Shown piece by piece: positions 2,606 through 39,639 of a stretch of DNA of 64,000 nucleotides. Location: NCBI RefSeq assembly GCF_000003815.2, contig NC_049996.1, positions 5,844,012 to 5,908,011 of the forward strand. The letters are read 5' to 3'. Below the pieces are notes generated by a model. That model was not told the origin of the DNA and did no database searches. It worked only from the letters and a program-made list of their open reading frames with translations. Position numbers and translations under genes: made by a program. This stretch comes from Branchiostoma floridae (lineage: Eukaryota; Chordata; Leptocardii; Amphioxiformes; Branchiostomatidae). The first letter of the stretch is position 1. Each line of letters starts with the position of its first letter.

Positions 2606-3084
2606 GTTCCCAACATGCTGAGCTGTCCTGCAAATGGTCTCAGCTGAGGTCAGCATATTGTATGTAAATACAGAGGTAATAGCCAGTACTGAAGTTGGGG
2701 ACATAGATAGAGAAGTTTATTTTGTTTCCATTCAAGATGGAAGGAGCTTCCAAATACAATATAAAATGTATTGTATCCATCCTAAAGCCACAGTGCATCA
2801 GCATGTGTAAAGTGTGGGGGCCACAGGTGAAACTGCAATGTAGCTTTTGGCAAAATCTTCTTAGAAGATTAACTGGACCATGGAAAACGTATTTCTATTT
2901 AATACGTAGGTAGCTAAGACAGAGATGTACATGATGAAGTGCAAAATATGCAAATTGGGACTTAATTTGCATATCTAATGAGTAGAATCTATATTTGTAG
3001 TGTTTTTCATTATAGGACTCAAATACATGTACATGAGTTTGTGGTAAGTGGAACAGCTACAGATATAATGCATATAAGTCCTTA

Positions 3085-5386
3085 ATTACCTCCATGAAAT
3101 GTCATGGAATGGAGGTTATATTTTCTGTTATGTGTCTCTGTCTGTGTAGAAGATTACTCAAGAACGGCTGGATGGATTGGTTTCATACTTGTTGTGTTGG
3201 TGGGGTGTGATAAAAGCTCGAATCGATGAGATTTTGGGCGCCGTATCTGTCGTTATAATCGATGTAATAATATCAGAAATCACCCCTATATTTGAGATAT
3301 ATTGGTACAGGCATCGTGCTTTATGTGTTTGTTAATGGGCTTAGCTGCAAGCAGATAGTGAGGTGACAGCTGTTTGGGGAACCCCCAGTAGTTTTATTTA
3401 TGTCTGCTTAGTACTGTTTGAAATATTTGTAACAGTTGGCACAGTAGTTTTATTTATGTCTGCTTAGGACTGTTTGAAATATTTGTAACAGTTGGCACAT
3501 TAGTGCTGCTGTTTGCCAAGCCCAACATTCTAGAACATCTGTTTTGGGAGGCGGACAATTTTGATTGTGATAATAAATTGCATGTATCATTGTATGTACT
3601 TGTGCGTTTGGGGACACAGTGTGTTATATTTCGTTTGTGTTGTTAGAGGTTTTGTGGTGCGCCTTGCGTAACGCGGGAGTTTCGTTAGTATGTAATTGGA
3701 TGTATGACATATCTAATATGTGGATGTGTTAGGTAATCCCTTATCTGAAAAGTTGTTGCGTATAGCAACTGGTTAGGGTAATGTAACAGTTAACTCCTTA
3801 AAGCAACTGTTTCCCGATGCTGGGCAACTGTTTCCCGATGCTGGACAATTTGAATATGATAAATAACTTTGTATTTAGCCACTTGTGCCTTTGGGGACCT
3901 GGTGTGTTATACTTCGTTTGCGCTGTTAGATTTTGTGCTCCGCGTGGCTTATGCTGATGTTGTGTTGGTAAGTACTTGCATTATTATATATCGGGCATCA
4001 ACTTGTCCCCGTATCCTACATGTAGGTATTGGTTGACGGATATTTCATGTCCTTTTGGTTGTGTTGATGATGTGTTTGTATCCTGTATTGTATTTCTTGT
4101 ATTTCATTATTGAATTTGTCATATGTCATATGACAAAGACAAAACATACAGTTGCGATTTTACCCAGTATGTAGAACATAATGCCTGTCTTGGAAAATGA
4201 GTGGTTACTGTCTGTGGTATTTGCACCTATATTTTGTTCCCGTTTGCGATATTGATATATGGTTTGGTGTGCCCGGTGTACACAGTCGCCCTACGATGCA
4301 CGTTGATTCCTTGGTTTTCTCGTCTGTGTACAAGATTACTCAAGAACGGCTGGATGGATTGGTTTTCATACTTGTTGTGTTGGTAGGGTGTGATGAAAGC
4401 TCAAATCGATGAGATTTTGGGCGCCGTATCTGTCGTTATAATTGATGTAATAATATCAGAAATCACCCCATATCTGCGATATATTGGAACAGTCATCGTG
4501 CTTTAAGTTTAAGTGTTTGTTAATGGGCTTAGCTCCAAGCAGATAGTGAGGTGATTTGTTTGACAGCTGTTTGGGGAACCCCGAGTTTTTTTAATATGAT
4601 AATTAGTTTTATTTATGTCTGCTTAGGATATCATGGAGATGTGAAACGTAAGTATAATTGTAAGAAGTTGAGGTACATTTAACGGTAATGCTTAACAGGT
4701 ATGGATGTCTCACATACTGTACTGCTGCTTTGAGTGACATGGTGATTAAAATGCCATTAGGTCCTCTCATCTTAGATGGGTTGGGTGTCAGAAGTTTTAT
4801 GGGCGATACAGATGTTCTGATTTCGTTACAATAAGGGACAGTTGTTAGTTGTCTCTTTCGTAGCCAATGGTACTTGTTTTTTAGCAGACGGGGTTGGCGC
4901 CAAGTATTGATCTTACAGTTGGTGTAGGGCTGTCAGAGGAAAGTGTGCATCTCGTTTTTGTACCATGTGAACAGCTGATGTTATGACATATTGGTGGAAA
5001 ATCAAATCACCATCTGACTAAAGTTGGCCACATCCCTTCTTCTTTCTGAGTTTCCCAACTTCCTCCCACCACACCGCTCTGTGGCACATAGTCGAACCTC
5101 AATAATGCTGACAACCTCAGACAGTTTAAATGCCAAAAAACATCAAGCTTAAGGAACACTACGCTACCATATGCCATTAACCTCTTAAACGCACATTACA
5201 CAATTAAGTGTCACATTTTAATAATTACTAATCAGATGGACATCCTCTGTGTCATTTAATAAATACACCACTACTTTCCCATAACATTTATAACCATTAC
5301 TCTCAAATACAACCGACTATAAACATACATACCATCCACAAAAAAGCAATAAATATTTCATGGAGGTATGAGGTCCCCGAACTCTA
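3085..5386. mobile_element. 2.3-kb insertion with short terminal inverted repeats
   Basis: Present in duplication copy A and absent from copy B. It begins TACCTCCATGAAAT at 3089 and near its right end carries the exact complement ATTTCATGGAGGTA. Inside is a direct repeat: 3140-3300 and 4320-4480 share the text around ATTACTCAAGAACGGCTGG, and a 68-bp stretch is duplicated at 3380-3500. No coding capacity was seen. The right boundary is uncertain by about 25 bp because the flanks have diverged. Confidence 0.6.
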
Positions 5387-6049
5387 GTTTCCATATTTTT
5401 AATCAATGAAAAGGTGCCATAATTCTTCTAAGTGGTAAAAGGTTTGACTTTTAAGATTGTGACAGATGTAAGTTGCTCAATGTTTTTTTTATTGCTCAAT
5501 GTTCAATAACATCAAAAGGATGTATATTCGATGTGAATGTTTACATGTATATTCATTGAATTCTTGTCACAGATTGTCATTAGATCTAAACTCCAGAAAG
5601 GAGTGCTGTTTTCAAATAGATAATGTTTCAATGAATAAATAATCAGCCGATATCTTTTCAGAATTGCACTTGTGGTGAATTACGCACTGTGTGTTTGTAA
5701 AAGAACAAGGCACTCACTAAACCCATACAGACCCTGTCCATGCATGTCCCAGCTTCCGCAAGGTTGGCGAAATGACGCACAAAGTTATTGAAGCATGTTA
5801 GGCCTTTTGAAAATGAACGTTTTGTATCGGTTCACTATTGGTTGAAATTCTTTTTCCGACAGTGCTCTTTGTTATATGCGGAAAAAAGACAGTCCATGTC
5901 TACAGGATGAAGGTGAATATTTGCGCTACAGAAATAGTCCAACAGCAGAGCTGAGGAAAATATTAGACGAATTGTGCAGATTTGGTGAACACAAAATCAA
6001 AGATATTACGTATGGGTTTGGTATTGACCGTCATACTTCTCCTTGATAT

Positions 6050-7121
6050 TAAATGCGACACACAGACACACTTGTTCATGGTACTGAATATCAGACACAA
6101 GCCCACCTTTTTGTTATACTAAACATCACATACACACACGCAGGGCCACAGGCACACCTGTCCTTGGTACTGAACATCACACACAGACGCACCTGTCCTT
6201 GGTACTGAACATCACACACAGACGCTTCTGTCCTTGGTACTGAACATCACACACAGACGCACCTGTCCTTGGTACTCAAATCACACACAGACGCACCTGT
6301 CCTTGGCACTGAACATCACACACAGACGCACCTGTCCATGGTACTGAACATTACATACAGACACACCTGTCCTTGGTACTGAACATCACACACAGACGCA
6401 CCTGTCCTTGGAACTGAACATCACACACAGGCGCACCTGTCCTTGGTACTGAACATCACACACAGACGCACCTGTCCTTGGAACTGAACATCACACACAG
6501 ACGCACCTGTCCTTGGTACTCAAATCACACACAGACACACCTGTCCTTGGTACTGAACATCACACACAGACGCACCTGTCCTTGGAACTGAACATCACAC
6601 ACAGAGGCACCTGTCAGTTGTTCATGGTACTGAATAGACGCACCTGTCCTTGGTACTGTTTTTGTTTCACTGAACATCGCGTACACATGCACACACACTG
6701 TCCATTGTACGGAATGTCACACACAAACACACCTGTTCATGGTACTGAATATCACACACAGATCCACCTTTTTGTTTCACTGAACATCGCGTACACACGC
6801 ACACACACTGTCCATGGTACTGAACGTCACACGCAGACACACTTGTTTATGGTACTGAATATCACACACAGATCCACCTTTTTGTTGTACTGAACATCAC
6901 ATCGCGTACACACGCACACACACTGTCCATGGTACTGAACGTCACACACAAACGCACCTGTCCTTGGTACTCAAATCACACACAGACGCACCTGTCCTTG
7001 GTACTGAACATCACACACAGACGCACCTGTTCATGGTACTGAATATCACACACAGACACACTTGTTCATGGTACTGTACATCACACACAGACCCAGCCTT
7101 TTGTTATACTGAACATCACAT

Positions 7122-7158
<37 letters not shown>

Positions 7159-7255
7159 CCATGATACTGACCATCACACACAGATGCACCTGTCCTTGGT
7201 GCTGAACGTCACAAATAGACACACTTGTTCATGGTACTGAATATCACACACAGAT
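6050..7255. repeat. Minisatellite, ~33-bp unit with CA-rich parts
   Basis: More than 30 degenerate units, typically CACACAGACGCACCTGTCC followed by TTGGTACTGAACAT. The unit length varies and some units fuse with CA runs, including a pure (CA)n tract near 7122-7155. Open frames across it only reflect the repeat. Confidence 0.9.
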
Positions 7256-7640
7256 CATTTAAGTCTTTAAACCCTTACATTATGATTTTTTTTCCTGGTG
7301 GTAGCTGAGGGGGATTCAGATGTAGCTTTATTTTGTAACATTTAAAAAGCGTCGCCTGGCAGTCCACAATGGCAGTGCACTTATTTACTATCAAAGATAT
7401 AATTGTTAAAGCTTGTGGAAAATTTACTTGGAATGTATTTCAGAGCATACAATTGCAGTGCTAGTATATATTGCCAGACGACGCTTTTAATTCATGATCT
7501 AAGATCCTTTTGCAGAAGATCATCTACTTCTGACAAAAATCGCTTGATGCCTGTTCTAGGTGCAGAACAAACACACAGACAGACACACCCAAACCTCCAT
7601 CACCATATAAATCTTTCTGTGCGCGAGGTTTAATTTAAAC

Positions 7641-9489: not shown

Positions 9490-10413
9490 TTACTTGGTCA
9501 GATACATGGTCATGGGCACGGCCACGGCAACGCTGATGACGTACAGGACAAGGCACAGTCTGTCCAGGACCTTGGTCAGCAGGGTGTAATCGGACACCTC
9601 CGGCTCGTTCTTCACCGCCTTGGTCAGCTCCTCCACGCTGTGGATCAGGTTACTGAAGCCAGAGGTCATGGCGGCCTCCAGGCGGCTGGGCGGGCCGGAC
9701 GGCTGGCAGGGTGTCCCGGAGACATCAGCGGGGGTCTCTACGTTGGCCTCCGCCACGCCATCGGCAGGGGCCACGCGGTTGGTCCGCTTAGGCCAGGCCA
9801 GCTTCCCGCCGGTATGACCTGTCTCTCCATCGTCGCTCGCAGCCTCCTTCTCTGTAAGGTCTCCGAGAAGCAGGAACCTGTACATCAATACGAAGGAACT
9901 ATGGTGATTAGGATGTCTACATTCATTCACATACACAACTATTATGGATAAGTGCATGCTCTAGCGTAAAGGTCGCTTTATAGAGGATGTACTGAACAAA
10001 ATGTTGTCACCAGGGTTCCTCCACGACAAAATCAGTTGAGTCTGCCTGCTGTGGAGAAGAATATTCTTTTCTTGATTTCATGCTTGCTATTGCAGATGAA
10101 ATTTAAATAAAGCTGCCAATCGGATTCGGTTAAGCTTCGCGTCGTTCAGCGCAGCACCAAGTGTGAAAAGCTATTTATAACTTAAGCCAACAAGCATTGA
10201 CAACCATCAAAAATATGGAAACAAGTCGCGATGTAAAGGGCTTCGTACAGAGTTTGCTTTTTTAGTAGATGAGTACGTACCCTGCCATGTAGCGGAGGAA
10301 GAAAGTCTTCGCCATTGGAGACAGGCCCCCCTCCTTGTCGTGGAGGGTGATGATGTAGATGGTGAAGAACAGGAAAAGTCCCATCATCGCCATGTACACG
10401 ACGATCAGCGATG
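9490..10413 (-). CDS. Receptor exons 17-18: M3, cytoplasmic loop, M4
   Basis: Exon 10413-10281 encodes M3 (SLIVVYMAMMGLFLFFTIY). Exon 9877-9490 encodes an acidic, Pro/Gly-rich intracellular loop of about 100 residues and M4 (VLDRLCLVLYVISVAVAVPM), ending MYLTK and TAA. The loop length is ordinary for the family. Confidence 0.92.
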
Positions 10414-13400
10414 CTGTAACATCACCCGTGGTTAACAGTTACCGGTATGTTCCATGACATCAGATTAAAAAATATCAGAAAACGAGGTCCTTGAATCACG
10501 ACCTAATTGACATGTTCCTGGACTGCGTTTTTCTACCAGTTCTTTCGGGCCCTCAGAACGGCTGCTGAGGAGCTACCGAAATGTCGGCCAGGTGCAAGAA
10601 CCTACTGTTCCAGTTTCCAGAATACAAAATTAATCGAACTATTTTGTGCTCAAATAGCAATAGACAAAAATAAGGACAGCACAACTTTCCTCACCGAAAA
10701 ATGGTAGCGCCCCTTTCACAGGAAGTACATCCGTGACAAACACGAGAGACACGACCATGGAGAGCAGGATGGTCACTCCGAAGGAGATCCGGTCTCCCTT
10801 GTCTATGGGCATGACGAAGGTGATGGTCATCAGCACCGCCAAGATGACGCAGGGGGCAACAGTCGTGGCGATGTGGAACAGCGGGATCCTCTTAAGATGA
10901 ACAGCGAAGCACGCCGTCTTGTTGCCTTCTGTGAAGATCTTGTCCTTCCGCTTCCATTCGCCCTCCTGTTGAGTTGGAGACCAGACGTCACAGGTACTTT
11001 CCCCTCCGCATTCTGTATTTCACAAATCATTTTTATACATTATTTATGTTCTAAATTCCTATGCAATTTTCGCTACGGAATTTTTGGCAACCTTGCTGCT
11101 ACCTTCTAAATGCCCATACGTTACTGACTAGCTCATACCGCCTTTGTGAAAGCATCTTTGTGCATTTCAGGATTCCATTATAGCATGAAATAAGTCCTTT
11201 CATCGAATATTTGCAAAACCTTACCGATGGTGTGCCTGATCGCAGAGGACACAGAGAAACAGATGTGGCATTCCATGGTGTCGGCAGGGAAGAGGAACGG
11301 GTCTGCATCACAGATGGTGCTGGTCAGAGTCTCCACCCTCCATGTTACCGTACCGTCAATGGTGATCAGAAGCGGTACGTCCTTCGGCAGTCCCGGGTAC
11401 GAAGGATCAGCACTGTGGAAAATCAACAAAGTCTCATCATTTCTCAGTTTTCTGACAACCCTTGTTTCCACGCCTCGTTCTTGTACTGTCCAATCATGGT
11501 TGTGTTGCACTGAAGTAGAAAAGTTGCAATATTCTGGTAAAATAACATTCCTTGTATGTCTGGAAAAAAGTAATCTGCAATCTTAATCTTGTTAGTTAAA
11601 AAGACAAGACTTTCTGCGAAAATCTACATTGTTACGGCGCCAAAATACCCTTGTTTACCTGCTATCTACCAGAATGATAGAACTGCTCGCAGAATTGTCT
11701 TCAGGGTCGTCATAAATATTGGTCGTGTTCATATTGGACTAAGGTTTAATCAACAAAATCATTGTTTGCCTGTTAAGATTGCCATCTAAATTCATTAAAT
11801 TTCTGGAAATATGATAAAAAAAGATTTAGCAAGGTTCCATCTTATCCCATGATAAAAGTTTAAGAAGAGACTACTACATACTTCCTCTTCAGAGTAAGTG
11901 TAGGGATCCAAATGCTGCTGCCCGGGACGCTGATGGTCTCGATGTTCCTGTAGTACTCTGGCTCCCATTTCAGCCGGCTGTCCTGCCAGGTCTGAAAGAA
12001 AAGAAAATATATTATAACAATAGAAAGTTTATAACAATTCATAACAATAGAAACTAAACCTCTCCATGAAGAAATGGCAGAATTATATATTTTCTGAAAT
12101 TTACTTGGCTCAACTTACGAAGTCAATGACTACAGCAGCAATCAGCAGCTCTCGTTTTTCGTCCTGAAATAAAAGTCACAGCATTGATTAGTTGATTGTT
12201 TGTTTTTTATCCTTTTGTTGTCTAGTTGTGGTAAACAACACAGATTTTTAAGTGTGTTATATATAGATGCTTACACTTACCAGGTCGACGATCTGTTCCA
12301 CAGAGCCTTTGAAACTGATGACGGACAGGGATCGGTTCTCAGTCTTAGGTGCCTGGTTTGGGCTGTACACGACGAACAGATCCTCTTCCAGCTTCCCCCT
12401 GATATCCACTGAGGAAAGGAGAAGTATACGCCCATCGTTATTTAGAAGCCCAAAATACTAACGGAAGAAACTTTCAACTTATCGTACGACAATGATCGAT
12501 TTCTATACCCATATCTCGTCTTTAAAATACTACACTGTAGATAAAGTCTTTACCACTTCCCTACTTTTTCAAATTTGTATATTAGATTAATCAAATTGCT
12601 ATCCTATACTGCCAAAGTCTACAACAATCACCTGAACAGCTGGGCTTGTCATCAGGTTCCCAGATCCCTCCTTCAGTACACCTCATGTCGCTGTAAGACC
12701 CGTTCTCCAGGGAGTACCCCACGTCGCAGGTGTACGCCACCTTTTCTCCCACGTTGTAGAACCTTTTGACAGGAATTCTCTTTCCGTAGTTTGGAGGACC
12801 CAAGTCCCAGCAGCCGACAACGTCTGGGTTACACGTTAGAAAAGGCAATAAAAACTATCCATCAATAAACATACATACATACATGACAACATGACATTAT
12901 CGAGGTTTTAAAGGCCCTAGAACCAAGAAGATCGATTTAAGTGGCCTGGTTTAAGTGGCATGGTGCAGAGGATGTCTCCGAACTTGGCAATACAACTTAC
13001 TGCACGGAATGACGTCACACTCCTCCTGGCTGCCATCTTCCACCAGACAAAATGGCCGCTCGTGACCGGTAGGGTTGCGGCAGTAGTTGTTCTCCAGGTT
13101 AGCCCAGGGATACTCGGTCTTGTAGAAACCGGCCTGCGCAGTGGACCACTCCACACATTCTACCCCGGAAGCAGTTTTACTCCATGCACCGCGGTAGTTT
13201 ATGCCGCTGCCATGGTAGCAAACTGGGAAAGATAAAAATGACCATACATCAGTACTTTATCATATATTGTTCTACATAATGCATTACTGAATGTGTGGTA
13301 AAATCAAACTTTCTGATCTATGATGTGATTGTGCAGGAAATGGTGACATCTAAGCGACGTAACGATTTGAAGTGCTACTGTAAAAGGAGAGCAGTGAATA

Positions 13401-16400
13401 TAACCGTCCTCCTGACCTTCATTGTTCTTCGTCTCTGGTTCAGGGTTCCAACAGGCGTGCGGTGGTGACGGAAACAGGTCACAGGTAGGGAACCGGTTCT
13501 TCAACCGGTCATCAGCCATGTGGAGGACTTCCTCACACCAAGAGCGGCATGGTACCAGTTGCGTACTACAACAGTTACATGTAATAGAAAAAACGCAGAT
13601 TTAGAAACACCCTTCAAAGATCAAAAACGAAAGACAAATGAAGGCAATTTTTGAGCAAACATCTTTATCGCAATTTTGAGGATGAATGACCAAGTGAAAC
13701 GCAAAACTTTTACTCACATGCACGAGGTCTTGTTGTCTCCGTGTAGAGATGAAGAGCAGAAAGTGTTGTTGTCTTCGTAGAGAAGACATCGTGGGAAGAT
13801 GACCGCAGATGCGAATTCCCGGAACCCAGGATGTCGGTTCTCTGTGTTGCTGCTCGAACTGCTGAGAAAGTCCACGGCAGAGGAATTCAGTATCTCCTTG
13901 AACGTCGTCTGGCCCAGCTGATTCGGCAGCATCGCAAGTCTGCCGCCGAGGTTGAGATCCTCAGGAGTTGACAGGCAAACTGAAAAACATAACATTATCG
14001 AGATATTGCTTTGAAAATCAAACAAATGACATGACATAAATATTGACAGGGGGTACTGACGAATAGGAAATTTACCGAACATGCAGGAAACGCTAGGTGA
14101 GAGGAGAGCATTCTTAAAGCCTCTTTGTTCACAGTGGTAACAATATGATTTCTTTCCGAAATACAATTTTACGAGCAACTGCATATACATTTATCAAGAA
14201 CCATGATAACTTACCACAACTTCCCTCGTCACTCCCGTCTGTACAGTCTGTCAGCCCGTCACACCGCTTCCACGCCAGGATGCAGGCATTTCCATGTGCG
14301 CACTGGTGGTACCCTAGGGTACAGGGCCGTGCTGTGTGGGTCGAAGCTAATGTTGGTGTAGGCATCACTGCATGGCCAGGGCAGAAAAAAGAGCTTGTCT
14401 CTCTTTTTGGGTTACATATGGCATATATTTGAACATTCCAACATGAAATGCAGTGTAATTATAAACTGCCCACATTAATTATGCAAATTAGCCCATGATT
14501 TGCACGATTAGCATTCAATTATGTAAGGCAACTCTGAAGCTATCTACATTCCAAATATTATTAAGACCCACTCCCGAGTTATCCCCCTCTAAAGGGATGA
14601 TGCAATTAACTACAAGCAACTAATTCCTAACATGCCTAACATGCCTCACAAATTTTGGGAATTTTCGAAAACCGTCGCTATCTATACTATTAGGCTAGCC
14701 CCTGAGGCGCCGCCAAAAACAGTGACAAAAAAACTGCTATTTTTATTAATGGGGAAAAGCTGCATTTTTTGTGCTGTTACGAAGGTTCAGAGTTCTTCAG
14801 ACCAAGAGTTTCAAAGCTTCACTTTCAGCGCCATACACATGTCAGCTATACTGTATTCACTTTCTACATTTAGATTACATCACCAATCATTTGTCACCAC
14901 CCTACCTCGGCCAGTGGGAAGGAGTTTAGGATGACGTCACCAAACGTCTGCCAACTTCTGCGACCTGCCAACCTACCCTTCCCACTGGGAGAAGTAACGA
15001 TGACGTCATCTCTCAGAACGTCACACCTAACTCCGCATAGCCTCAAAAGCTACTCGGTAATGACCATGACCGCTGCTATGCTGCTAACTTCTGGCACTTA
15101 GCCCTGATCCTGAACATTACTCCTGTATCTCTGACAAATCATGAACTGTTTAGTTTGAAAAAAAACTTTCAGTTGCCCTGCTGTCAAACCTCAAACACAA
15201 ACCAAAACATCAAAGATCCACAGTGTCTAGAATTATCTTGTTCGCAACCGCACACACGCACACACTCGTCCCGACAGAAAGTACAAGGTGAACCGTTTTC
15301 GAACAAAACCATGGTATCTGCAACCGCTACTCAAATACCAAATATCATGAAATTCCATCTACAGCTGCTCAAATTATATTAATTGACCTACATATAGCGT
15401 CACAATACTATTTCTACTCAAAATATAACCTTCTCGGCGAAGGTAAAAAGTACTTATTACCCGTATCTAAATATAGTTGTTCATCACCCTCCGAGGAGTC
15501 AGTGGACATCCAGCACCCGTTACTGGGGCAGGCAAACCGATAGTAGCGCCCAGTGTAACCATTGTAGACGTTGATCTGGAAAGAATTAGAGTTGAACATA
15601 CATCAATAACTTCTCAATTACTATGAAAGTTGTTAAATGCATGTATGAGCAGACTTCATACAGTTGAAGCCAGTTAATTGCACAACGGATTACCGCAAAC
15701 TTCTGTTAATTGCATAGAATAAAAATATCCCCAACCGGAGCGGTCCAGCTGGATAATTTCGCATTGTTGCATCATCCGGATAATTGCGTGAAATACAATG
15801 GCCAATGGGATGTGCTATCAAACTTGTACTGTACTTGCATCGTAACTCACCCAGGCTAGACTGAGCCAATCGCCCCCAGAAGTAGTAAGCAGAATCCCAG
15901 AAGGATCACCAAAGTTGGCCCCCGAAAAGGTTCGGTTGTACTTTGCCCTTTGACGTTGATGTTATGTAGGAGAAAGTCGATCATTGATTAATAAGTAGAG
16001 GAGAAATTATGATTGAATGTATTGAGTTTATTGATATCCCCTTTAGCTCAGGCTGAGCTAATCTTCCAGGGCTAGTACAATAAAAAACATACATCATATA
16101 AAAATACATACAGATACAATAACATACACTCAAATACGGATCAGAATTACATGTACATACGAATACATACATTAAAATACGAGTGAGGTCAGAGGACACA
16201 TGTTATATACACTAAAAACCATTATGATCCGTAAAATTGGTCTACCATCCTCTTGAGACGGGAGGGGGGGGGGGTCTTTTGAGGCCATCACCAACTATGA
16301 TGTCGTATAACGCCAGAACGGCTTATGCAAGAGCCACCAAATTTGGTGAGTTTTCCTACAATATTGTTGGCAACAATTTCAAGAGGTTTGACAAACTTTC

Positions 16401-19132
16401 CTTTTTTTGTTGCCATGGCAACCGTTTGTCAAAAATCGCTAATTTCGGTTCTAACAATGTATTTTTCACGTTTATTTGCTACATTACTGCTATTTTCTTA
16501 CATAGATAAAATCTTATGTTATGTAGAATATCTTTCATGATTAGATATGCATAAATCATGCTAATTTGATGACGTCATCAGCCCAAATCCAAGATGGCGG
16601 ACCGTATGACCAGATCAAGAAAAACTAGCTTATTATCCCTTAGAATTTGTAACTTAGCAAAAATGTAACAGCTAAGGTAACAACTTCAATGTACTTACCC
16701 ACGTTCTGTGAGTCCGGTCACCGTCATCGACATACAGACGCCATCGCAAACGTCAGAGAGGATTTGCACTGTCAACGAATCCACAGTCCCAGCCCAACCT
16801 TCGTCACTCACTGCAATCGTCAGCCCGTGATTTACTGTTTGATGAAACATAATATAATTATATCATCACTTTTCCGATGGATATATAACCTGGGTGATAT
16901 AAACCACATTCCATTCATGCGCCTAACTACATAGTACAAATCGTTAGCTATGCTGTTAACCTTTTTAGTGTGAATTTCAGATTGGTCTAAAGAATGGTCT
17001 CAAATATCTGATACATATGATACATACTTGTGCTGTAAACCTTGCTATATTTAAGTTGTTACCTTAGCCAAGAAGGTTATACTTTGGGTAAGGTGTTTCT
17101 TGTCCCAGTATGTAGGTCAATATCGTATAACTTGAGCAGCTGTGGATGGAATGTCATGATATTTGGTATTTGAGTAGCGGTTGCGTATACCAAGGTTTTG
17201 TACGAAAACGGTGCACCTGGCACTTTCTGTCAAGACTGCAGCGGGGCGAGTGTGTGCGTATGTGTATTTGCGGACCAGATAACTATTGACGATGTGGATC
17301 GTTTTACACTATATTTGATTGTTATTTAGGAGTTTGGAAAATGAGGGTCAAGTTCGATATTGGGCGTCCTGGCGACAAGTTGCGGTACTGCAGCGGAGGG
17401 TCAAAGTTGGCGTTAAGAGTAAGGTGCGTTTGGGCCCCATAGAGGCTTTTGGGGGACTTCAGACGCCAATTTTGTTTGGCAAAGAGTAACCCAAGAAAGG
17501 GTTGAGAAATCGCAATGATTGTTGGTTTTTAATAACTCAATAACGAAATTACGGCGTTTAAAAAAACGACTGGAAACAACACTAAGGCTTGAGTAAACAA
17601 CAAGATAGACCAATGCAATTTTAAAAAGATGATGTAACAACAAATTTGGTAGCTGTAGATCAATCAAACTTGAAACAAAAGAGAGATATAAGCACTCTTA
17701 ACTTCTGAACACGGAAATTCTTCAAATAAAATGACGGGGGAATCATAGATAATGGCGGGGAAAATTCTTTAACTATCTTTTAGAGGTCTCAAACTGTCTG
17801 AAACATGTGAACAAAAGTTGGAAACAGACAGACGCACAAAATCCAACAAAATTCGTAAAGTTCAATAGTCGTTCCTTACCGGATGGTAGCTCAGCGTTGA
17901 TGCCCTGCAGAGTTGTACGTGCGGTGCTGGGCTGTAGAGTCGTGGTGCTGGGCTGTAGAGTCGCGGTCCTGGGCTGCACAGTCATGGTGCTGGGCTGCAC
18001 AGTCGTGGAGCAGGGCGGCAGAGTTGTACGTGCGGTGCTGGGCTGCACAGTCGTGGTGCTTGCCTGCACAGTTGCGGTGCTGGGCGGTAGAGTTGTACGT
18101 GCGGTGCTGGGCGGCACAGTCGTGGTGCTGGGCTGCACAGTCGTGGTGCTTGGCTGCACAGTCGCGGAGCTGGGCGGCAGAGTTGTGCGTGCGGTGCTGG
18201 GCTGCACAGTCGCGGACCTGGACTGCACAGTCGCGGTGCTGGGCTGCACAGTTGGGGTGCCGGGCTGCAAAGTCGCTGGGCTGGGCTGCACAGTCAAGGT
18301 GCTAGAGTGCATAGTCGTGGTGCTGGGCTGCAGAGCTGTACGTGCGGTGCTGGGCTGCACAGTCGTGGTGCTTGCCTGCACAGTCGCGGTACTGGGCTGC
18401 ACAGTCGTGGTGCTTGCCTGCACAGTCGTGGTGCTGGGCTGCACAGTCAAGGTGCTAGGGTGCATAGTCGTGGTGCTGGGCTGCAGAGCTGTACCTGCGG
18501 TGCTGGACTGCATGGTCGTGGTGCCGGGCTGCACAGTCACAGTTCGGGGATGCAAAGTCGCGGTGCTGGGCTGCACATTCGTGACGCTGGCCTGCACAGT
18601 CGAAGCTAACGTTGGTGTAGGCATCAGTTGCATGGTGAGGGCAGAAAAAAGAGCTGGTCAAAAAACTATGCGGGTTTCATTTGCCAGTTAACCGCCCTTG
18701 AAGCCGGCCGAACAACATTCCACTGACCGTCTGGCACCCTTGCTGACTGTTGTATTTAACACTGCAGCTAGGTGTCGCTGCTGCAATACGGTTAATGCCC
18801 TTAATCATGATTCGTCTCAATTATTCATGACCGGTATATATAGGTATATGCACTTATACACAACATTTGAAATATATATAATCTGTGATAATTTTAGAGT
18901 ATACATGTCCTTTTGCATACTAAAAGAAGTCATTGCCTTCAAATACTTTATTCAGTAGGAATAGATTTCGAATCGATTTCATTTTTCTCCTGATTTATCT
19001 ATTCAATTGATTATCTATCTAATTTATGTTTCTTTCCTTATTTGTTAAGTATGCGATTCTGTATACCACCGTTTTACTTTGTTTGAATTAGCCTTCGGGC
19101 TTGGTCTTGCGACAAAGTTATTATTACTATAG

Positions 19133-19176
<44 letters not shown>

Positions 19177-22100
19177 GCATTACATGCATGGAAAACGTAC
19201 ACAAAGCCTCCTGTAACGGAGAAGCTCAAATGAAAAATACATAAACAACGGGGAAGAATTTGGAAAAATTGGTCATGAAATTCCAGCTATCATAGAGATA
19301 GCAAGTATGCAGGCACATCGCTGAGGAACCACCACCGCATCTCATCTGTAAATGCAGAAATGTTCGCGGTGGATTAATGTTCGCGGTTTTCGCGGTGGCC
19401 ACTTCACCGCGAAGTTAAAACCACCGCGAACATTTTTCTATTATGGTATTAGACTGCAGTCTATGGTGGTACCGCGAAATTAAAACCGCGAAAAGTCCCT
19501 TTCCCGCTACCGCGAAATTAAATCCCCGCGAACTTAAATGCATTTACAGTAAGTCCAGTATTAAGGTGTTATGGAAGTGACGCTTGAGAAGATATAGAAC
19601 ATGAAAGAGATGGACATGCATTTTCCTTATTACAGAACCATAACAAATTTGATTAATGGAGAAAAGCTGCATTTTTGTGCTGTTACGAAGGTTCAGAGTT
19701 CTTCAGACCAAGAGTTTCAAATCTTCACTTTCAGCGCCATACAAATGTCAGCTGTATTCAAGTATATACTGTATTTAATTTCTGCAATTAGATTACATCA
19801 CTAAACTTTTGTCACTTGCCACCCTACCGGCCGAAGATACGAAAACAGAAACGCACCGGAAAGGCGTCGCCTTTATGCGATGCGAACTAAAAAGTCCCAA
19901 AGGGATATTGTACAGACATTCTCTTGTTAGTAACGCGCGTCTGAGTCCTAACACCTCTATGGAGAACAATAAGTGTACAGGGATATTAATGGCCATATTG
20001 AGTAATGAAATTTAAAAATTTGATGATGCCCAGTGTGGTTACTAACTGTTGCATGACGTGGCCAATTATATTTTACGCTTATCATTTGTAAGATGGTATG
20101 TATTGCTCAGAACATGAAAGATGTCGGCATGTATTTTCTTTAATACAAAACCATAACAATTAGAGCATTGGAGAAAGACTGCATTTTTGTGATATTATAA
20201 AGTTTCAGAGTTCTTCAGACCAAGAGCTTTAAAGCTTCACTTTCAGCGCCATACACATGTCAGCTATACTGTATTCACTTTCTACATTTAGATTACATCA
20301 CCAATCATTTGTCACCACCCTACCTCGGCCAGTGGGAAGGAGTTTAGGATGACGTCACCAAACGTCTGCCAACTTCTGCGACCTGCCAACCTACCCTTCC
20401 CACTGGGAGAAGTAACGATGACGTCATCTCTCAGAACGTCACACCTAACTCCGCATAGCCTCAAAAGCTACTCGGTAATGACCATGACCGCTGCTATGCT
20501 GCTAACTTCTGGCGCTTGGCCCTGATCCTGAACATTACTCCTGCATCTCTGTCAAATCATGATACTCAACTGTAGTTTTCCAAATAAAATCCTTCAGTTG
20601 CCCTGCTGTCAAGCCTCAAACACAACAATTATGGTAATAAAATGTCATGGTGACGGTTTGTAGGTTGCCAGAAACGAGAAAACTACCAAACTGATTCCGG
20701 AAACCAGGCTAACCAAATTCAAATATAGTTAAATCTCTACAACTGGATAAAAACGGATATCTACTTCCGGATGTTTCGAGTGACATCCATCCCTTTTCTT
20801 CAGCGTCACTAGAATGAACTAACAGAACAATTCAATGTAAGTACAGCTAACTAGAAAAACCGATTGAACCACTACCTCGTAAGGATCATATGCAAAAGTC
20901 ACTCAAATGTAAATCATGTTAGCATAGTTCCCTATGGTCAGACAACACCATAGGAAAAAGTCATTGTCTTTTGTGATGCAAGGCGGGATACTCTTTCGCC
21001 ATCTACCACCACAATAAGCTACATGATGAAGGACATACCTTTAACCTGGACACAACAGACATCCTTGACCGTGAGCCACGGTGGTTAACGAACGAGGAGT
21101 CAGGGAGGCCATCTACTAGTATATGGCAATATATTTGTTTCAAAAATACGGGAGCTATACTGTACGTGACGTTTTATCTAAATTCACGTTACATGGGACG
21201 TAAAATACGTGACGTCCAACGTATTACAGAAACGTCACACTTGCGTGCAGCATACGTGACGTCCTCTTATCAATAACTTAGTTAACGATTTATTAATTGG
21301 TAGGACGTGACCAATCTCTTTGTAGAACGTACGTGACGTGTTTTAACAGATCCGTGTTTTCAAGTCACGTGTGAAGCAAAGTACGTGACGTGTTTTAAAG
21401 GGTTTAGCTACCGTTGTGCGACCTACTTAACGGTCGCACTACTTAATTCAAATCAATGTTACCCTTTAGCAACCATTTACTTTGAACCTTCCTTGTATCC
21501 ATGTTCCTATAGCTTATAAAACAAGACGATTTTTCCTTTACCTCCGTAGAAGTCCAGCTCTGTGAGCCATGGCTGCCAGCCCGAGTGAGTCTCAGTAATT
21601 AGGAACCTCCAATACCGAGCTGTACCCTGGAACCCGCCGAACTCCTGCCGCTGGTCCGTCCCTCCCTGCACGGTAGTAACGGTCACGACGTCCTCCCAGC
21701 TGTACGGACTGCCAACCTGCGACTTTTGCAGCGTGAAGACTGCAGTGTCATGGGCGGTGTCTCCAATGTTGTTAACAGCGACGCGAGTGATAGTATGTGG
21801 CGCTGTGAGGTCAAGTACAATGTACCAGTTGTTGTAGTTCTGACCCATACCCCCAGGGTTCCAGTAGGTCCCAGTGTCTCCATCCAAGGCTTTTGCGGCA
21901 TCATACGTCACTCCGTTGTTGACCCACGGTGTGCCGGCGGAGTCCACAACCCATGACGGATCCCGTTCCAGCCACACACCTGGACAAGTATAACGTATGT
22001 CATAATTTCTCTGTCAATATTTCGTCTTAAAAAAAAGGTACATTAACTAAACGGAGATATGTCTTATATTGAATATGGAGCCTAATACACATCCTGCTTT

Positions 22101-22327
22101 CATTCTCAGACATGAAAATTCTTTAAATAGAATGGCGGGTGAAATTATGAAGAGGTCTCCCACTGTCTGAATTATGTCACCAAAACACACATGCACAAAA
22201 ATCAAACGAACCCTGACACATTTATTAAGTACTGAAAACGTTTCTTACCGGACGGCGGTTCAGAAGAGTCGACTAGACAAATGGCAAACGCAACGGCAAC
22301 AGCCAAGCCTGGACCAAACCTGGTCAT
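9490..22327 (-). CDS. Chimeric Cys-loop ligand-gated ion channel with seven extracellular modules
   Basis: Eighteen coding exons join in one frame: 22327-22249, 21979-21542, 18605-17880, 16834-16699, 15947-15851, 15575-15461, 14346-14215, 13979-13718, 13565-13417, 13222-13001, 12823-12632, 12408-12281, 12163-12119, 11991-11882, 11412-11225, 11012-10695, 10413-10281 and 9877-9490. All have GT donors and AG acceptors, and phases agree at each junction. The product is 1,285 residues: signal peptide (1-19), F5/8C (27-172), Thr/Pro-rich (173-414), PLAT (415-530), LDLa (531-574), Frizzled-type CRD (575-711), kringle (712-785), sushi (786-849), ligand-binding domain (850-1050) and M1-M4. It should sit in the plasma membrane as a pentamer. 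Family knowledge predicts a neurotransmitter-type channel; the ligand is unknown and the ectodomains suggest matrix, lipid or glycan contacts. The start is ATG 22327, before a hydrophobic leader. Ordinary nicotinic-type subunits are about 450-500 residues, so about 850 residues are added. Confidence 0.88.
10695..12408 (-). CDS. Receptor exons 12-16: Cys-loop ligand-binding domain, M1 and M2
   Basis: Exons 12408-12281, 12163-12119, 11991-11882, 11412-11225 and 11012-10695. DEKRELL...VIDFTWQD corresponds to the nicotinic-type loop region, and IWIPTLTL replaces the usual W.PD..L motif. The Cys-loop is intact, C978-x13-C992 (CDADPFLFPADTMEC). M1 (about 1050-1074) carries the conserved APC. M2 runs from DRISFGVTILLSMVVSL and keeps Leu at 9'. 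Position -1' is Asp and 20' is Asp, the charge pattern of cation-selective members; there is no PAR anion motif. Confidence 0.93.
12632..12823 (-). CDS. Receptor exon 11: sushi (CCP) module
   Basis: 64 residues, phase 1-1, four cysteines, with the typical YTCDVGYSLENGS and CTEGGIWEPDDKPSC segments. It lies directly before the channel's ligand-binding domain. Confidence 0.9.
13001..13222 (-). CDS. Receptor exon 10: kringle module
   Basis: 74 residues, phase 1-1, six cysteines in kringle order: CYHGSGINYRGAWSKTASG, then C..W, NNYCRNPTG and RPFCLVEDG. Kringles bind proteins through lysine or related sites. The combination kringle-CRD also occurs in ROR-type receptor kinases, but here it is joined to an ion channel. 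Confidence 0.93.
13417..13979 (-). CDS. Receptor exons 8-9: Frizzled-type cysteine-rich domain
   Basis: Exons 13979-13718 (phase 1-2) and 13565-13417 (phase 2-1). The features are LAMLPNQLGQTTFKEIL, matching the LPN..GH.T segment of Fz CRDs, and LVPCRSWCEEVLHMADDRL, matching PC...C..V, followed by a CDLFP segment. I count eight cysteines rather than the usual ten, so one disulphide may be missing. Fz CRDs bind Wnts or lipids; the ligand here is unknown. Confidence 0.8.
14215..14346 (-). CDS. Receptor exon 7: LDL-receptor class A module
   Basis: 44 residues, phase 1-1, six cysteines in LDLa spacing, with the calcium-site signature CDGLTDCTDGSDEGSCG. An alternative acceptor at 14367 would add seven residues without changing frame. 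Confidence 0.9.
14632..15195. repeat. Intronic repeat, copy upstream of the LDLa exon
   Basis: Partner of 20133-20600; contains the paired TGACGTCA sites at about 14931 and 15001. The intron also carries, near 15170-15370, an inverted copy of a repeat found at 17100-17280. Confidence 0.8.
15461..16834 (-). CDS. Receptor exons 4-6: PLAT/LH2 domain
   Basis: Three exons, 16834-16699, 15947-15851 and 15575-15461 (phases 1-2, 2-0, 0-1). Key stretches: HGLTIAVSDEGWAGTVDSL (first strands, with the G-T-D/V motif), NFGDPSGILLTTSGGDWL (the LG.P..I.L..D...W core) and INVYNGYTGRYYRFACPSN followed by GCW (the YYF.C..W end). PLAT folds bind lipid or protein partners at membranes. The first and last boundaries are phase 1, so the set could have shuffled in as a unit. 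None of the exons is long enough to stand out as an ORF. Confidence 0.75.
16019..16160. other. AT-rich intron segment
   Basis: A run of CATACA-type phrases; no function seen. The large introns 16.9-17.8 and 18.7-19.3 kb likewise hold only dispersed repeats, except for the items listed separately. Confidence 0.3.
16409..16422. promoter_or_regulatory. Perfect palindromic X-box-like site in a receptor intron
   Basis: GTTGCCATGGCAAC fits the consensus for RFX transcription factors exactly. It lies between PLAT exons 4 and 5. Confidence 0.4.
17880..18605 (-). CDS. Receptor exon 3: Thr/Ser/Pro-rich mucin-like module
   Basis: About 242 residues built of 8-residue units such as TVQPSTAT and TVQASTTT, broken every few units by ARTTLPPS. 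It is phase 1-1, with a donor at CCATCCG/GTAAGG. It should be an O-glycosylated stalk. The acceptor could also lie at 18653 with the frame unchanged. The DNA is a 24-bp coding minisatellite, so allele length is likely to vary. Open frames on the plus strand over it are shadows. Confidence 0.75.
19138..19172. repeat. (TA)n microsatellite
   Basis: About 17 TA dinucleotides in receptor intron 2. Confidence 0.95.
19346..19551. mobile_element. MITE, 'GCGGT' family, copy 1
   Basis: About 206 bp, ending in CTGTAAATGCAG at the left and ATGCATTTACAGTA at the right. The body is a long imperfect palindrome rich in TTCGCGGTG/CACCGCGAA. The same family is at 48125, 51738 and 55783. Confidence 0.8.
19826..20096. 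repeat. Intron-2 copy of the receptor's 5' flank
   Basis: Matches 22357-22625 base for base over most of its length, including CGGCCGAAGATACGAAAACA and AAGTGTACAGGGATATTAAT. Same orientation as the upstream copy, so it could act as an internal promoter. Confidence 0.85.
20133..20600. repeat. Intronic repeat shared with 14632-15195
   Basis: Highly similar to 14700-15195, and partly to 19620-19805. Common text includes AGAGTTCTTCAGACCAAGAG and two TGACGTCA palindromes (CRE-like). The copies lie in the introns upstream of the LDLa exon and of the mucin exon. Confidence 0.85.
21163..21391. promoter_or_regulatory. Five TACGTGACGT sites in receptor intron 2
   Basis: The identical 10-mer TACGTGACGT occurs at 21163, 21206, 21253, 21330 and 21382, amid further ACGTCAC and CACGTG fragments. 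It joins an E-box/bHLH core (ACGTG) to a CRE-like half (TGACGT). A binding cluster is inferred, not shown. Confidence 0.4.
21542..21979 (-). CDS. Receptor exon 2: F5/8 type C (discoidin-like) module
   Basis: 146 residues, phase 1-1. The fold signature is DGDTGTYWNPGG, then NNWYIVLDL, and near the end ARYWRFLITETHSGWQPWL followed by LDFYG. This family binds glycans or phospholipids on cell surfaces. The usual terminal cysteine pair is not seen, so it is nearer the cysteine-free, fucolectin-like variants. Confidence 0.85.
22249..22327 (-). CDS. Receptor exon 1: start codon and signal peptide
   Basis: ATG at 22327-22325, then MTRFGPGLAVAVAFAICLVD, a typical short basic/hydrophobic leader. It ends in phase 1 before GTAAGA. 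Frames opening further upstream use GTG only, so this ATG is preferred. Confidence 0.8.
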
Positions 22328-22625
22328 GTTCTTGCCTGTTATACCGACCCAAACGTCGCGGCCGAAGATACGAAAACAGAAACGCACCGGAAAGGCGTCG
22401 CCTTTATGCGATGTGAACTAAAAAGTCCCAAAGGGACATCATACAGACATCTCTTGTTAGTAACGTGCGTCTGGGTCCTAACACCTCTATGGAGAACAAT
22501 AAGTGTACAGGGATATTAATGGCCATATTGAGTAATGAAATTTAAAATTTTGATGATGCCCAGTCTGATTACCAACTGTTGCATGACGTGGCCAATTATA
22601 TTACACGCCTATCATTTGTACGATG
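22328..22625 (-). promoter_or_regulatory. 5' flank and probable promoter of the receptor gene
   Basis: This GC-richer stretch lies directly upstream of the start codon. It carries a CGCATAAAGG element and a GCGTTTCTGTTTTCG tract. A copy with about 90% identity lies inside intron 2 at 19826-20096. No TSS can be fixed from sequence alone. Confidence 0.45.
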
Positions 22626-22659
22626 ACATGTATTGCTCTTTTTGGAAAAGAACAAAAAA

Positions 22660-26530: not shown

Positions 26531-28609
26531 GGGCTGATGAAACAGCCAGACTGGTCTCAGTTCTGAAGAATGTGCCTTGTCTGAGGGCACTGGAACTGTC
26601 ATACTTAGAGGTAACGCCATCATCACTCCAACCTCTTTTGTTTGGGTTCAGTCACGTGTCTCTGTTAGAGGAGCTAGATCTTATGCTACGACTTTGTGAT
26701 GCTGAGATGGAATTCCTGCCGGTTGTGCTGTCCAGTGTTCCACACCTGGCTGTACTCCGTGTTGGAGAGACAGCTGCTGGCATTGCTTCCCTGGCTCCAC
26801 ACATGCGCCACCTGGTGAGACTGAGAGAACTGTGTATCAGCAGAAGTGATATCAGTGACACTGATGCAAAGTCTCTTGCTGCTTCCCTGCCTACCTTCAC
26901 AGCCATGCAGGTGTTGGTCCTTGTTTGGACTGGTATAAGTCCCACAGGCATGTGCATACTAGTCCCTGCTCTGTGTCAGCTAACCAGACTTATCAAACTG
27001 GACTTAAGTTATAATAAAATAGGAGACCCCGGGTTGGAATGTCTGTCAGCTATCCTCCACCACCTCACAGCCATGAAGGTGTTGGTTCTCACATCAACAG
27101 GTATCAGTGACAGGGGAATATCATCCCTGATCAAAGCTTTGCCTCATCTGGAGGAGCTACAGGTGTTGGATGTGAGTAGCAATGACATAGGAGACACAGG
27201 GATTGTCTCACTGGTGCAAACACTCTGCCATCCAAGCACTTTGGACACAGAGCAAAATCCGCCTGGTGACAAGAGTCTGACCGCAGGCCCTCACTATAAC
27301 CCCACACTACAGGTGCTGAACATTGGGTGGAATAAGAGAGTAACAGGAGCTGGGCTGGGGAGGGTCGCACAGCTCATCAGTGCACTGCAGGCACTGACAG
27401 TGCTGGACATGTCTGGAGAGTCCCGCACTATTGGTTACTCGTACACACCTGTACACCTGCCGGACACTGCAGCCATGTCCCTGGCTGAGGCCCTACCCAG
27501 ACTCCCTGCCCTGGAGGGGCTGGCTTTGATGCACATCTCCATGAAGCCTGCAGGGTTCCAGGCTGTGGTGCATGCTGCTGAGGAACACCCAACACTGGAG
27601 AGGTTACAGTGAGTTATATTGGTTTGGGCATACTGTACTCCAGGGTAGCTTAAACATGTAAGGTGAAGCAAGATACTTTTTTCAGGTAGCAGCTGAGTAA
27701 CAGTTACTGTAGTGTAATGTGGCTTGACTACAGTTCACATTTCAGAAAGTATTTGATAAAATTATAAGTGGAAAGATATGTGTCTTGTTTGTTTTATGAC
27801 GATTTTCATTAGGCCACAGTAAGTAAATTTTATGGATGATATCCTCTGCAGACTGCAAAAATAGTGCGATAGGGCAAAAAACAAGATGGCTACATTTTCA
27901 AAAATAGGTACCATAAAGTTGTGATGAATGTTGTTAACAAGAATTAAAGGGACAAAACATGGTATCAGAGCCAACAAGGCATTCATTCCTGTATTCAAGA
28001 CAGGTACTGGTGTGGTAAAAGTGACACTAGTGTGGTAGACTGGCATCACCAACAAAGTTGGTAACCACACTCAAGGCTTCCATATTGGTGTCACTTTTAC
28101 AACTATCCAATATAATAAGTTTCATTTCTTCAACTCCTTGGTACCTCGCAGCTGCCACTCCAACAGGAACAATTATTAGGCTACAACTAAATACAACATA
28201 TTTGCTTATTTTGCTACTTTATTGTCATGTTGACCATCCCTACAGAAGAAAATATTTCTTGTTTTCTTTCTTAAATCAGGCAAAAAATAATGTGCACGCT
28301 GATGTCATCCCTAAAATTTACTTGCTGTGGCCTTAGTGTACATTATCATGACAATACTCTTCCTGGGGTCATACATATTGTATAATAAGATATATATGAA
28401 ATACATGAAATGAAATTCAACTTAACAACTTGTCTTCTTAACATAGAATTGTTAGTTCTTTCACTCACACTTTCTGCAGATGTTATGATGACATGTTACA
28501 GTAGCTTTTGATTTATTCTTCTTTTTTTTTCATTTTCAGCTACTGTAATCTTGGAGTCAATGTTCCTGAAGGGGCAGACACCACAGCCAGCTGCTTGAAG
28601 TTGAGCTGA
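26531..28609 (+). pseudogene. Duplicated LRR gene end lacking its 5' part
   Basis: Exon-like 26533-27608 and last exon 28540-28609 (ends TGA) match 536-1606 and 2536-2605. Homology starts abruptly at about 26531, and an in-frame TGA lies at 26527-26529, so the N-terminal part is missing and no good ATG or acceptor replaces it. About 358 LRR codons have stayed open, with a handful of substitutions and a 4-residue length difference. This means the duplication is recent or the piece is still used as an exon of something. Probably a truncated copy. Confidence 0.65.
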
Positions 28610-29440
28610 GTTCCCAACATGCTGACCAGTCCTGCACATGGTCTCAGCTGAGGTCAGCATATTGTATGTGATACTGTATGTAAATACTGAGGTCATAGCC
28701 AGTATTGAAGCTGGGGACATAGATAGGGAAGTTTATTTTGTTTCCATTCAAGATGGTAAGAGCTTCCAAATACAACATAAAATGTATCGATTCTAAAGCC
28801 ACAGTGCATCAGCATGTGTAAAGTGTGGGGGCCACAGGTGAAACTGCGATGGAGCTTTTGTCAAAATCTTCCAAGAAGATTAATTGGACTTGGAACGACG
28901 TATTTCCATTTATGTAGGTAGACAGAGATGTACAATGTATATGAAGTGCAAAATATGCAAATAGGGACTGACTTTGGATATCTAATGAGTAGAGTCTATA
29001 CTTGTTTTTCATCATACGACTCAAATACATGTACATGTGTAGTTTGTGGTAAGTGGAACATCAACAAACATAATGCATATAAGTCCTTAATTTGCGTATT
29101 TTAATCAATGAAAAGGTGCCATAGTTCTTCCAAGTGGTAAATGGTTTGACTATTAATATTGTGACAGGTGTACGTTGCTCAATGTTTTTTTTTAATTGTT
29201 CAATGTTCAATAACATCAAAAGGATGTATATTTGGTGTGAATGCTAACATGCGTGTTCATTGAATTCTTGTCACGGATACTAAGATCTAAACTCCAGAAA
29301 GGAGTGTTGTTTTCCAATAGATAAATCTGATGAATAAATAATCAGCCGACCTCTTTTCAGAATTGCATTTGTGGTGAATTACGCACTGTGTGTTTGTAAA
29401 ACAAGGCACTCACTAAACCCATACAGACCCTATCCATGCA
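26531..29440 (+). repeat. Segmental duplication, copy B
   Basis: Partner of 536-5742 without the 3085-5386 insertion. It includes the intronic transposon (27811-28336). Confidence 0.85.
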
Positions 29441-39343: not shown

Positions 39344-39600
39344 GATCTTATTGGTGCCATCAAGTCCGGATTAACTGCAGCTGCAATGTTCCTGGTGGGA
39401 CTTATCCTGGTGAGAGGTTGTCCGATGCCATCTCCACGGCTAGCTGTACGGTGACGTCCAGAAAGATCCTTCCCTGTGTAAAAGCCCCGCCAGAGGACCT
39501 GAAACTAAGATAAGTTCTTGTGTGTCTTATGGGGTGTAAAATGGAAACATGTCGCAGAATTGGGCTGGGACTAACTTCTCGTCGGCATGATAAGAAGGAA
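39344..39600 (+). repeat. Low-copy unit A, exon-like start
   Basis: TTCTTCCAG precedes GATCTTATTGGTGCCATCAA; one frame reads DLIGAIKSGLTAAAMFLVGL up to CTG/GTGAGA. Related copies begin at 40325 and 43330, all followed by GTGACGTCCAGAAAGATC. Coding status unproven. Confidence 0.4.
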
Positions 39601-39639
39601 ATGATTTGTGCGGCCTTTTGTGCCTTATAAACTACAACA

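Follow-up and report, generated by a model that had tools for sequence, protein, structure and literature searches.

Cys-loop receptors are textbook small-transmitter channels, and a locus of the lancelet Branchiostoma floridae raises the question of whether such a channel can be encoded in one gene together with a long series of adhesion modules. The window, meaning the whole stretch of DNA analysed here, comprises 64,000 nucleotides of assembly GCF_000003815.2 (contig NC_049996.1, positions 5,844,012 to 5,908,011 of the forward strand); positions below count from its first letter, and the gene in question runs from 22327 to 9490 on the minus strand. A first-pass annotation had read it as seven extracellular modules, namely F5/8C, mucin-like, PLAT, LDL receptor class A (LDLa), Frizzled-type cysteine-rich domain (CRD), kringle and sushi, followed by a complete Cys-loop channel. 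That union of adhesion modules and channel is strongly supported, because the module order recurs elsewhere in the genome, the phase of the junction between the sushi exon and the ligand-binding domain (LBD) is kept, and the 223-bp intron between them carries no sign of a gene boundary. As read from sequence, the predicted architecture is well supported, and we think it probable that this is one true gene among about 42 that encode pentameric cation channels derived from nicotinic acetylcholine receptors (nAChRs), with exchangeable heads that bind multivalent targets.

A single predicted gene spans the adhesion modules and the channel

The gene consists of 18 exons, each of them present where the first-pass annotation had placed it, which join in a single frame of 1292 residues with the sole stop at its end. 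All 17 introns are bounded by GT and AG, and no frame break occurs. Every border between modules is in phase 1, and the module units upstream of the LBD are symmetric (1-1).

Passages of PMC4967905 document gene-joining errors in lancelet annotations and demonstrate one case, and for this reason the joint between sushi and LBD was tested. Neither AATAAA nor ATTAAA is present in the intron at this joint or anywhere from 14746 to 11751 on the gene's strand. The missing AATAAA is by itself a weak argument, since the 3' end of the gene also lacks one within 2 kb and has an ATTAAA about 500 bp beyond the stop codon. A strict scan for signal-peptide-like first exons ending in phase 1 picks up exon 1 and no further candidate from there to the LBD, while relaxed scans at two thresholds return 3 and 7 candidates, none of which lies within 7 kb upstream of the LBD. 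An independent start just before exon 12, which the first-pass annotation regarded as fatal to its proposal, was therefore found by neither kind of scan. All 12 close paralogues fetched have the sushi donor in phase 1, and the LBD acceptor keeps this phase in all nine whose fetched piece covers it. The first LBD exon ends with a GC donor (gcaagt) in the paralogues L044, L050, L051 and L052, and with GT in the window and the other copies read.

The same architecture recurs across the genome

We searched the assembly (513 Mb, 431 contigs) with exon 16, which encodes the pore, and obtained 135 matches. Identity of at least 70% and no stop inside the match were shared by 42 places on 17 contigs; the window is included in this number and in all counts over the 42 places that follow. 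The gene is thus one of about 42 and not a singleton, although two places lie on small contigs (C221 and C256) and may be second haplotypes. Module searches (PLAT/LDLa/CRD, F5/8C, lectin, and kringle/sushi) were overlaid on these places, on the same strand and up to 28 kb upstream, a limit chosen with the places on C11 (sushi at 25 kb) and C3 (sushi at 23 kb) in view. Upstream of the pore exon, sushi is found at 42/42 places, kringle and the second part of the CRD each at 41/42, the first part of the CRD at 40/42 and LDLa at 26/42; with a 12-kb limit, sushi is still found at 40/42 and kringle at 39/42. Among heads, the map shows a query-like C-type lectin at 16/42 places, F5/8C at 10/42 and PLAT-like exons at 2/42 (the window and C8). 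It covers 63 of the 135 channel places with 65 kringle, 22 F5/8C and 19 lectin places, and omits weaker kringles and most F5/8C and lectin rows far from any channel.

The order seen in the window is uncontradicted at 41 of the 42 places, in a test that makes no distinction between the three kinds of head and is passed trivially where a single module was found (C16:2345468). The exception is the C8 place, with two module sets in tandem: C8:9508309-9535186 (L059) has PLAT-like exons and LDLa-CRD-kringle-sushi, followed by a lectin, another full set and one channel, and may represent two genes or a doubled arm. At 40 other Cys-loop places used as a control, no kringle (of 104 kringle places used) lies upstream within 28 kb; the 40 come from the first 43 rows listed, with three adjoining rows skipped, and several could belong to a single gene as its exons. 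One classical nAChR-type locus was also fetched as a control and has no module in 6.5 kb. Fetched paralogues agree with the map, as the sushi exon precedes the LBD in 12 of 12 close copies (with the kringle inside 10 of the 12 pieces), and CRD, kringle and sushi all precede it in 4 of 4 distant copies, which are 53-63% identical to the window in exon 16 and 34-61% in the modules. Among more distant channel places, kringle lies upstream at 20 of the 21 covered. Repetition over so many contigs means that the architecture is no local accident of annotation.

Two further observations concern the wider family. A second, distant tier of channels (on C2, C11, C13, C18, C230 and others, including L053, L054, L055 and L056) is 48-69% identical in exon 16, and the 20 of 21 distant places with an upstream kringle belong to it. 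At C5:4743570-4749059, lectin, LDLa, CRD, kringle and sushi follow one another in this order, and no match to a channel exon is listed close by; the channel there has possibly been lost, diverged or escaped assembly, or this is possibly a gene for a soluble arm.

Identity of the extracellular modules

Exon 1 (22249-22327; like all exons here, on the minus strand) provides the start codon and the signal peptide (MTRFGPGLAVAVAFAICLVDSS...), ends in phase 1 and is the only strict first-exon candidate from 22800 to 12409. It is followed by an F5/8 type C (discoidin-like) head in exon 2 (21542-21979; PF00754, 1.6e-10, and PF22633, 2.3e-11) and by the open frame of exon 3 (17880-18605), a mucin-like spacer of about 242 residues of repeats rich in Ser, Thr and Pro. 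A PLAT-like domain is spread over exon 4 (16699-16834), exon 5 (15851-15947) and exon 6 (15461-15575), and the last two have equivalents in the C8 and C7 copies. Exon 5 completes the domain and has proper splice sites; without it, exon 4 would not join exon 6 in frame. The rest of the arm consists of LDLa in exon 7 (14215-14367; PF00057, 2.3e-8), the Frizzled-like CRD in exons 8 (13718-13979) and 9 (13417-13565), the latter with a PCRSWCEEV motif, the kringle in exon 10 (13001-13222; PF00051, 8.8e-17) and sushi in exon 11 (12632-12823; PF00084, 7.6e-8).

The E-values above were obtained with the modules as separate pieces, and all exceed Pfam's own cut-offs. When the joined protein of 1292 residues is searched whole, a check that the first-pass annotation had proposed, F5/8C, LDLa, kringle, sushi, Neur_chan_LBD and Neur_chan_memb all pass again. 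Of the seven modules listed, Pfam bears out F5/8C, LDLa, kringle and sushi, while PLAT and the Frizzled CRD go undetected in the window's own sequence, which gives no Pfam or PDB sequence-search match for either even at E 10. A four-row CRD profile run against the PDB found nothing. Copies elsewhere come closer: one paralogous CRD (from C17) matches PF01392 Fz at E 5.4e-4 with 20.9 bits against a cut-off of 32.1, and the PLAT-like C8 copy matches PF01477 PLAT at E 0.015 with 16.5 bits against a cut-off of 23; the C7 copy has no Pfam match. Against the family CRD profile, FZD8 scores 4.2 bits in hmmsearch, where shuffles reach 8.5, and hhalign gives p 0.005. The PDB route to a Frizzled identity was set aside, as the hmmsearch score of FZD8 lies under the best shuffles and neither phmmer nor the four-row profile found anything relevant, and the PDB sequence search likewise matched nothing relevant for PLAT. 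Eight cysteines of the CRD are invariant in four rows, where ten are expected of a Frizzled CRD, and by eye two of the disulfide pairs typical of a Frizzled fold lack one or both partners. On these comparisons, Frizzled-like CRD and PLAT-like are the probable names of the two domains.

The kringle scores best with plasminogen kringles (62-63 bits for single-kringle chains, 43 bits for ROR2), so no special tie to ROR is shown, and kinship of the CRD-kringle pair to ROR/MuSK was set aside as unsupported. By eye, the paralogue on C12, the closest to the window gene, has a TTTVHPN-repeat exon that resembles the mucin-like exon in frame and 3' end. The start of the mucin exon region (18660-18605) looks by eye like a near-copy of the surroundings of the LDLa acceptor (14400-14340) with the AG lost, which makes a common origin of the mucin and LDLa exons possible. 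The 5' flank of exon 1 (22359-22638) has a 94% copy at 19828-20108, in intron 2 upstream of the mucin exon, which could act as a second promoter for a channel lacking the F5/8C head. The C12 paralogue has a flank of similar appearance ahead of its own signal peptide exon.

The channel keeps its pore and has a degenerate agonist pocket

Exon 12 (12281-12408), entered in phase 1, starts the LBD (PF02931 Neur_chan_LBD, 1.4e-28), which the spliced model continues through exon 13 (12119-12163, 45 bp), exon 14 (11882-11991, 110 bp) and exon 15 (11225-11412); Pfam and alignments place the Cys-loop (C-x13-C) and the FPAD motif in the last of these. The end of the LBD, with a shortened loop C, shares exon 16 (10695-11012) with M1, the M2 pore helix and the start of M3. 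In the spliced model and by Pfam, exon 17 (10281-10413) encodes M3 and exon 18 (9490-9877) the cytoplasmic loop, M4 and the stop codon. The match to PF02932 Neur_chan_memb (3.9e-17) spans profile positions 1-226 of 233, and the closest solved structures are nAChR alpha4 (E 5e-34) and alpha7, then 5-HT3A (E 2e-31). The Cys-loop reads C-DADPFLFPADTME-C, with 13 residues between the cysteines. FPAD is shared by 22 of the 23 other LB4 rows, the remaining one having FPSD. M2 is almost invariant, with Asp -1', Arg 0', Thr 6' and Leu 9' in 39/39 rows, from which cation selectivity is predicted. By its domains, Cys-loop and M2, the predicted protein is a member of the Cys-loop (pentameric ligand-gated ion channel) superfamily.

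The agonist site is another matter. The aromatic box consists of Tyr in loop A, Trp in loop B, Tyr in loop C and Trp in loop D; aligned to alpha4, the window gene departs from it in loops A, B and D, with Tyr replaced by Lys, Trp by Ser and Trp by Val. Loop C is about 9-10 residues shorter than in alpha4, most of it missing, and has a single Cys in place of vicinal cysteines. Loops A, B and C are alike in 16, 23 and 24 paralogue rows, respectively, and loop D was read in the window only. These changes indicate that the classical pocket is degenerate and the pore kept. The gene accordingly does not have the hallmarks of an acetylcholine-binding nAChR subunit, both the aromatic box and the vicinal cysteines of loop C being absent. 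The 110-bp LBD exon is common to the window gene and the classical nAChR-type locus L057, where a simple scan did not find a 45-bp exon; 45 and 110 bp are exon sizes of nAChR genes, and a text search of the literature for these sizes found no paper.

Different heads on a common arm

In the C12 paralogue, the signal peptide exon is 85% identical to exon 1 of the window gene, and it is followed by a C-type lectin where the window has F5/8C, then by the mucin-like exon and the common arm. Lectin_C was confirmed by Pfam in all three heads scanned (1.4e-16, 4e-19 and 2.7e-20). The final tally gives lectin heads at 17/42 places (C12 included) and firm F5/8C heads at 8/42 (window included); two of the ten F5/8C assignments are doubtful (C16:2729716 and C17:2077978), each lying more than 21 kb away. 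The window gene has the F5/8C head that the first-pass annotation described, and the outer head varies between copies, C-type lectin being the commonest where one is assigned. Copies of F5/8C 90-92% identical lie upstream of three other family members on C16. Of the calcium/sugar motifs E/QP[ND] and W[NH]D, both are present in 14 of the 17 lectin heads (EPN with WND in 11, EPD with WND in 2, QPD with WHD in 1), one in a single head (EPN without WND) and neither in 2. EPN is the mannose-type and QPD the galactose-type binding motif. A stretch on C7 (11034500-11193700; L058, L060) has F5/8C and PLAT-like exons with no channel match nearby and is a possible donor of the window's head; an exon upstream there looks fucolectin-type by eye, and Pfam found nothing in it.

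A tree was built from exon 16 (106 columns; 39 close and 4 distant copies, 15 rows being without a head label), leaving out C256:10719, C221:480268 (L075, whose match is split in two) and C17:2077978. The window gene, with F5/8C, pairs with the lectin-bearing C12 gene at a support of 92/87. Four changes of head label are needed on the tree, and well-supported branches force at least two. The labels are clustered far more than in shuffles, so the swaps have been few. In six comparisons, the ratio of nonsynonymous to synonymous substitution rates (dN/dS, here and below as point values of a counting method) ranges from 0.08 to 0.73 for the parts from LDLa to the transmembrane helices, save LDLa in one comparison, and from 0.36 to 1.29 for the C-terminal exon. 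This pattern fits functional genes with looser ends.

Proposed mechanism and alternative explanations

We propose that the module exons, symmetric and of phase 1, entered an nAChR-type gene at the intron that separates its signal peptide from its LBD, which is presumably a phase-1 intron in nAChR genes, and that the outermost head exon was swapped later. Five arms per pentamer would then hold the heads far from the membrane, where they may bind glycans, phospholipid or some other surface multivalently, in place of a transmitter in the old pocket. Such binding would pull or cluster the receptor, and the force or rearrangement would travel through sushi into the LBD and open the cation pore; we infer this passage from arm to pore because sushi joins the beginning of the LBD directly. 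Family members could serve to sense contact, in chemosensation or immunity, each kind of head suiting its own targets. Together, the comparisons suggest a little-noticed channel family that senses large molecules or surfaces and not neurotransmitters. The specific form of this proposal, in which lectin and discoidin heads, exon-swapped on a common arm, directly gate pentameric cation channels for contact chemosensation or the electrical detection of microbes, is put forward tentatively. The Wnt-like or protease-like ligands that the first-pass annotation had considered receive no direct support.

Several observations weigh against our proposal. The family is known here from genomic sequence alone, gating by the heads is our own deduction, and anchoring or clustering of the channel would suit the heads just as well; a subunit that lacks an agonist site may, besides, act as a silent partner in a heteromer. 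The Frizzled and PLAT identities fall under Pfam cut-offs, no head is assigned at 17/42 places, LDLa is not seen at 16/42, and C16:2345468 shows a sushi exon alone. The dN/dS is 2.15 for LDLa in one comparison (40 codons), 1.55 for the signal peptide (27 codons) and 0.92-1.29 for the C-terminal exon in three of six comparisons. Finally, the tree was built on a single exon, and its bootstrap had not settled.

The main rival to head-gated sensing is anchoring, in which the modules tether or cluster the channel, at a cilium, synapse or matrix, and a partner subunit or another ligand gates it. We consider this unlikely, though it deserves serious weight: known receptor-clustering proteins contain kringle, CRD, LDLa and sushi modules, and the degenerate agonist pocket resembles that of partner subunits that bind no agonist. 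However, heads of several kinds, with the sugar motifs kept in most of the lectins, suit diverse targets better than one fixed anchor, and anchoring alone leaves some 42 copies unexplained. A second rival holds that decoy or soluble isoforms dominate, with arms freed by read-through of the sushi exon or by exon skipping and the channel as a minor product. Isoforms of these two kinds are possible for the window gene, as reading through the sushi exon adds 13 residues before a stop and, the module units before the LBD being symmetric, skipping one preserves the frame. That they dominate is improbable, because the exon encoding M1-M3 ranks with the best-conserved parts of the family, which would not be expected of a dispensable channel. 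A merger on paper of an adhesion gene with a downstream channel gene, which the documented lancelet cases (PMC4967905, in part) and the tolerance of phase-1 borders for false in-frame joins might invite, is very improbable and was rejected on the lack of boundary signals in the intron and of first exons near the LBD, the sushi exon at every place, the absence of kringles from the controls and the conserved junction phase.

Other features of the window

A leucine-rich-repeat gene region is present in two copies, 92% identical, on either side of the channel gene (540-3087 and 26533-29092). A long BACK-Kelch open frame lies on the minus strand at 35112-36581 (489 residues from stop to stop), with a partial BTB match just under the cut-off. 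A reverse transcriptase fragment occupies 39594-40187 (RVT_1, 7e-11), with a further open frame of this fragment overlapping it at 39805-40098. Self-comparison shows two tandem-repeat arrays (57134-58553 and 6040-7256), and scans of the window for tRNA genes and Rfam families found none.

Comparison with known systems

Passages of PMC4967905 mention 269420_PRF0, a protein with Neur_chan_memb for which B. belcheri and B. floridae have an ortholog pair and whose domain architecture seems confined to Branchiostoma. The protein may be a member of the family described here, although the main text gives no domain list for it and warns of annotation error. According to PMC4795631, evidence for links of the channel to other domains exists at the genome level only. 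The first-pass annotation knew of no described member with such an ectodomain; a lancelet-specific Neur_chan_memb architecture has been mentioned in passing (PMC4967905, in part), and among the matches listed in our literature search, which did not extend to supplements, we found no description of the family.

If our reading is true, a class of small-transmitter channels has been turned into receptors for macromolecules or surfaces, with about forty genes that keep the pore, drop the transmitter pocket and carry, at the end of a long arm, lectin or discoidin heads that can be exchanged. Lancelet exon shuffling, whose new architectures have been disputed as annotation errors, would thereby be linked to a case with strong internal replication, and the family provides a direct means of asking if glycans are able to gate pentameric channels.

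The window gene resembles nAChR and 5-HT3 receptors in its LBD and transmembrane domains, 13-residue Cys-loop, FPxD motif, acidic -1' and Leu 9' residues and 110-bp exon; unlike them, it lacks the aromatic box and vicinal cysteines, has a shorter loop C and adds a multi-module ectodomain of about 850 residues. Cephalopod chemotactile receptors are likewise an expanded nAChR-derived family with an altered transmitter site, used for contact sensing, although they are not known to have added extracellular modules. Polycystin-1 and the polycystin channels also tie a large ectodomain with C-type lectin and LDLa, and PLAT, to a cation channel, but the channel fold is unrelated, PLAT is intracellular and the modules are arranged otherwise. 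Frizzled CRD with kringle, LDLa and sushi are the module types that the arm shares with the group formed by MuSK/ROR receptors, LRP4 and LEV-9/LEV-10. MuSK/LRP4 and nematode LEV-9/LEV-10 tether or cluster acetylcholine receptors, but do so as separate proteins acting in trans, whereas the lancelet gene is predicted to carry such modules and the channel in one polypeptide.

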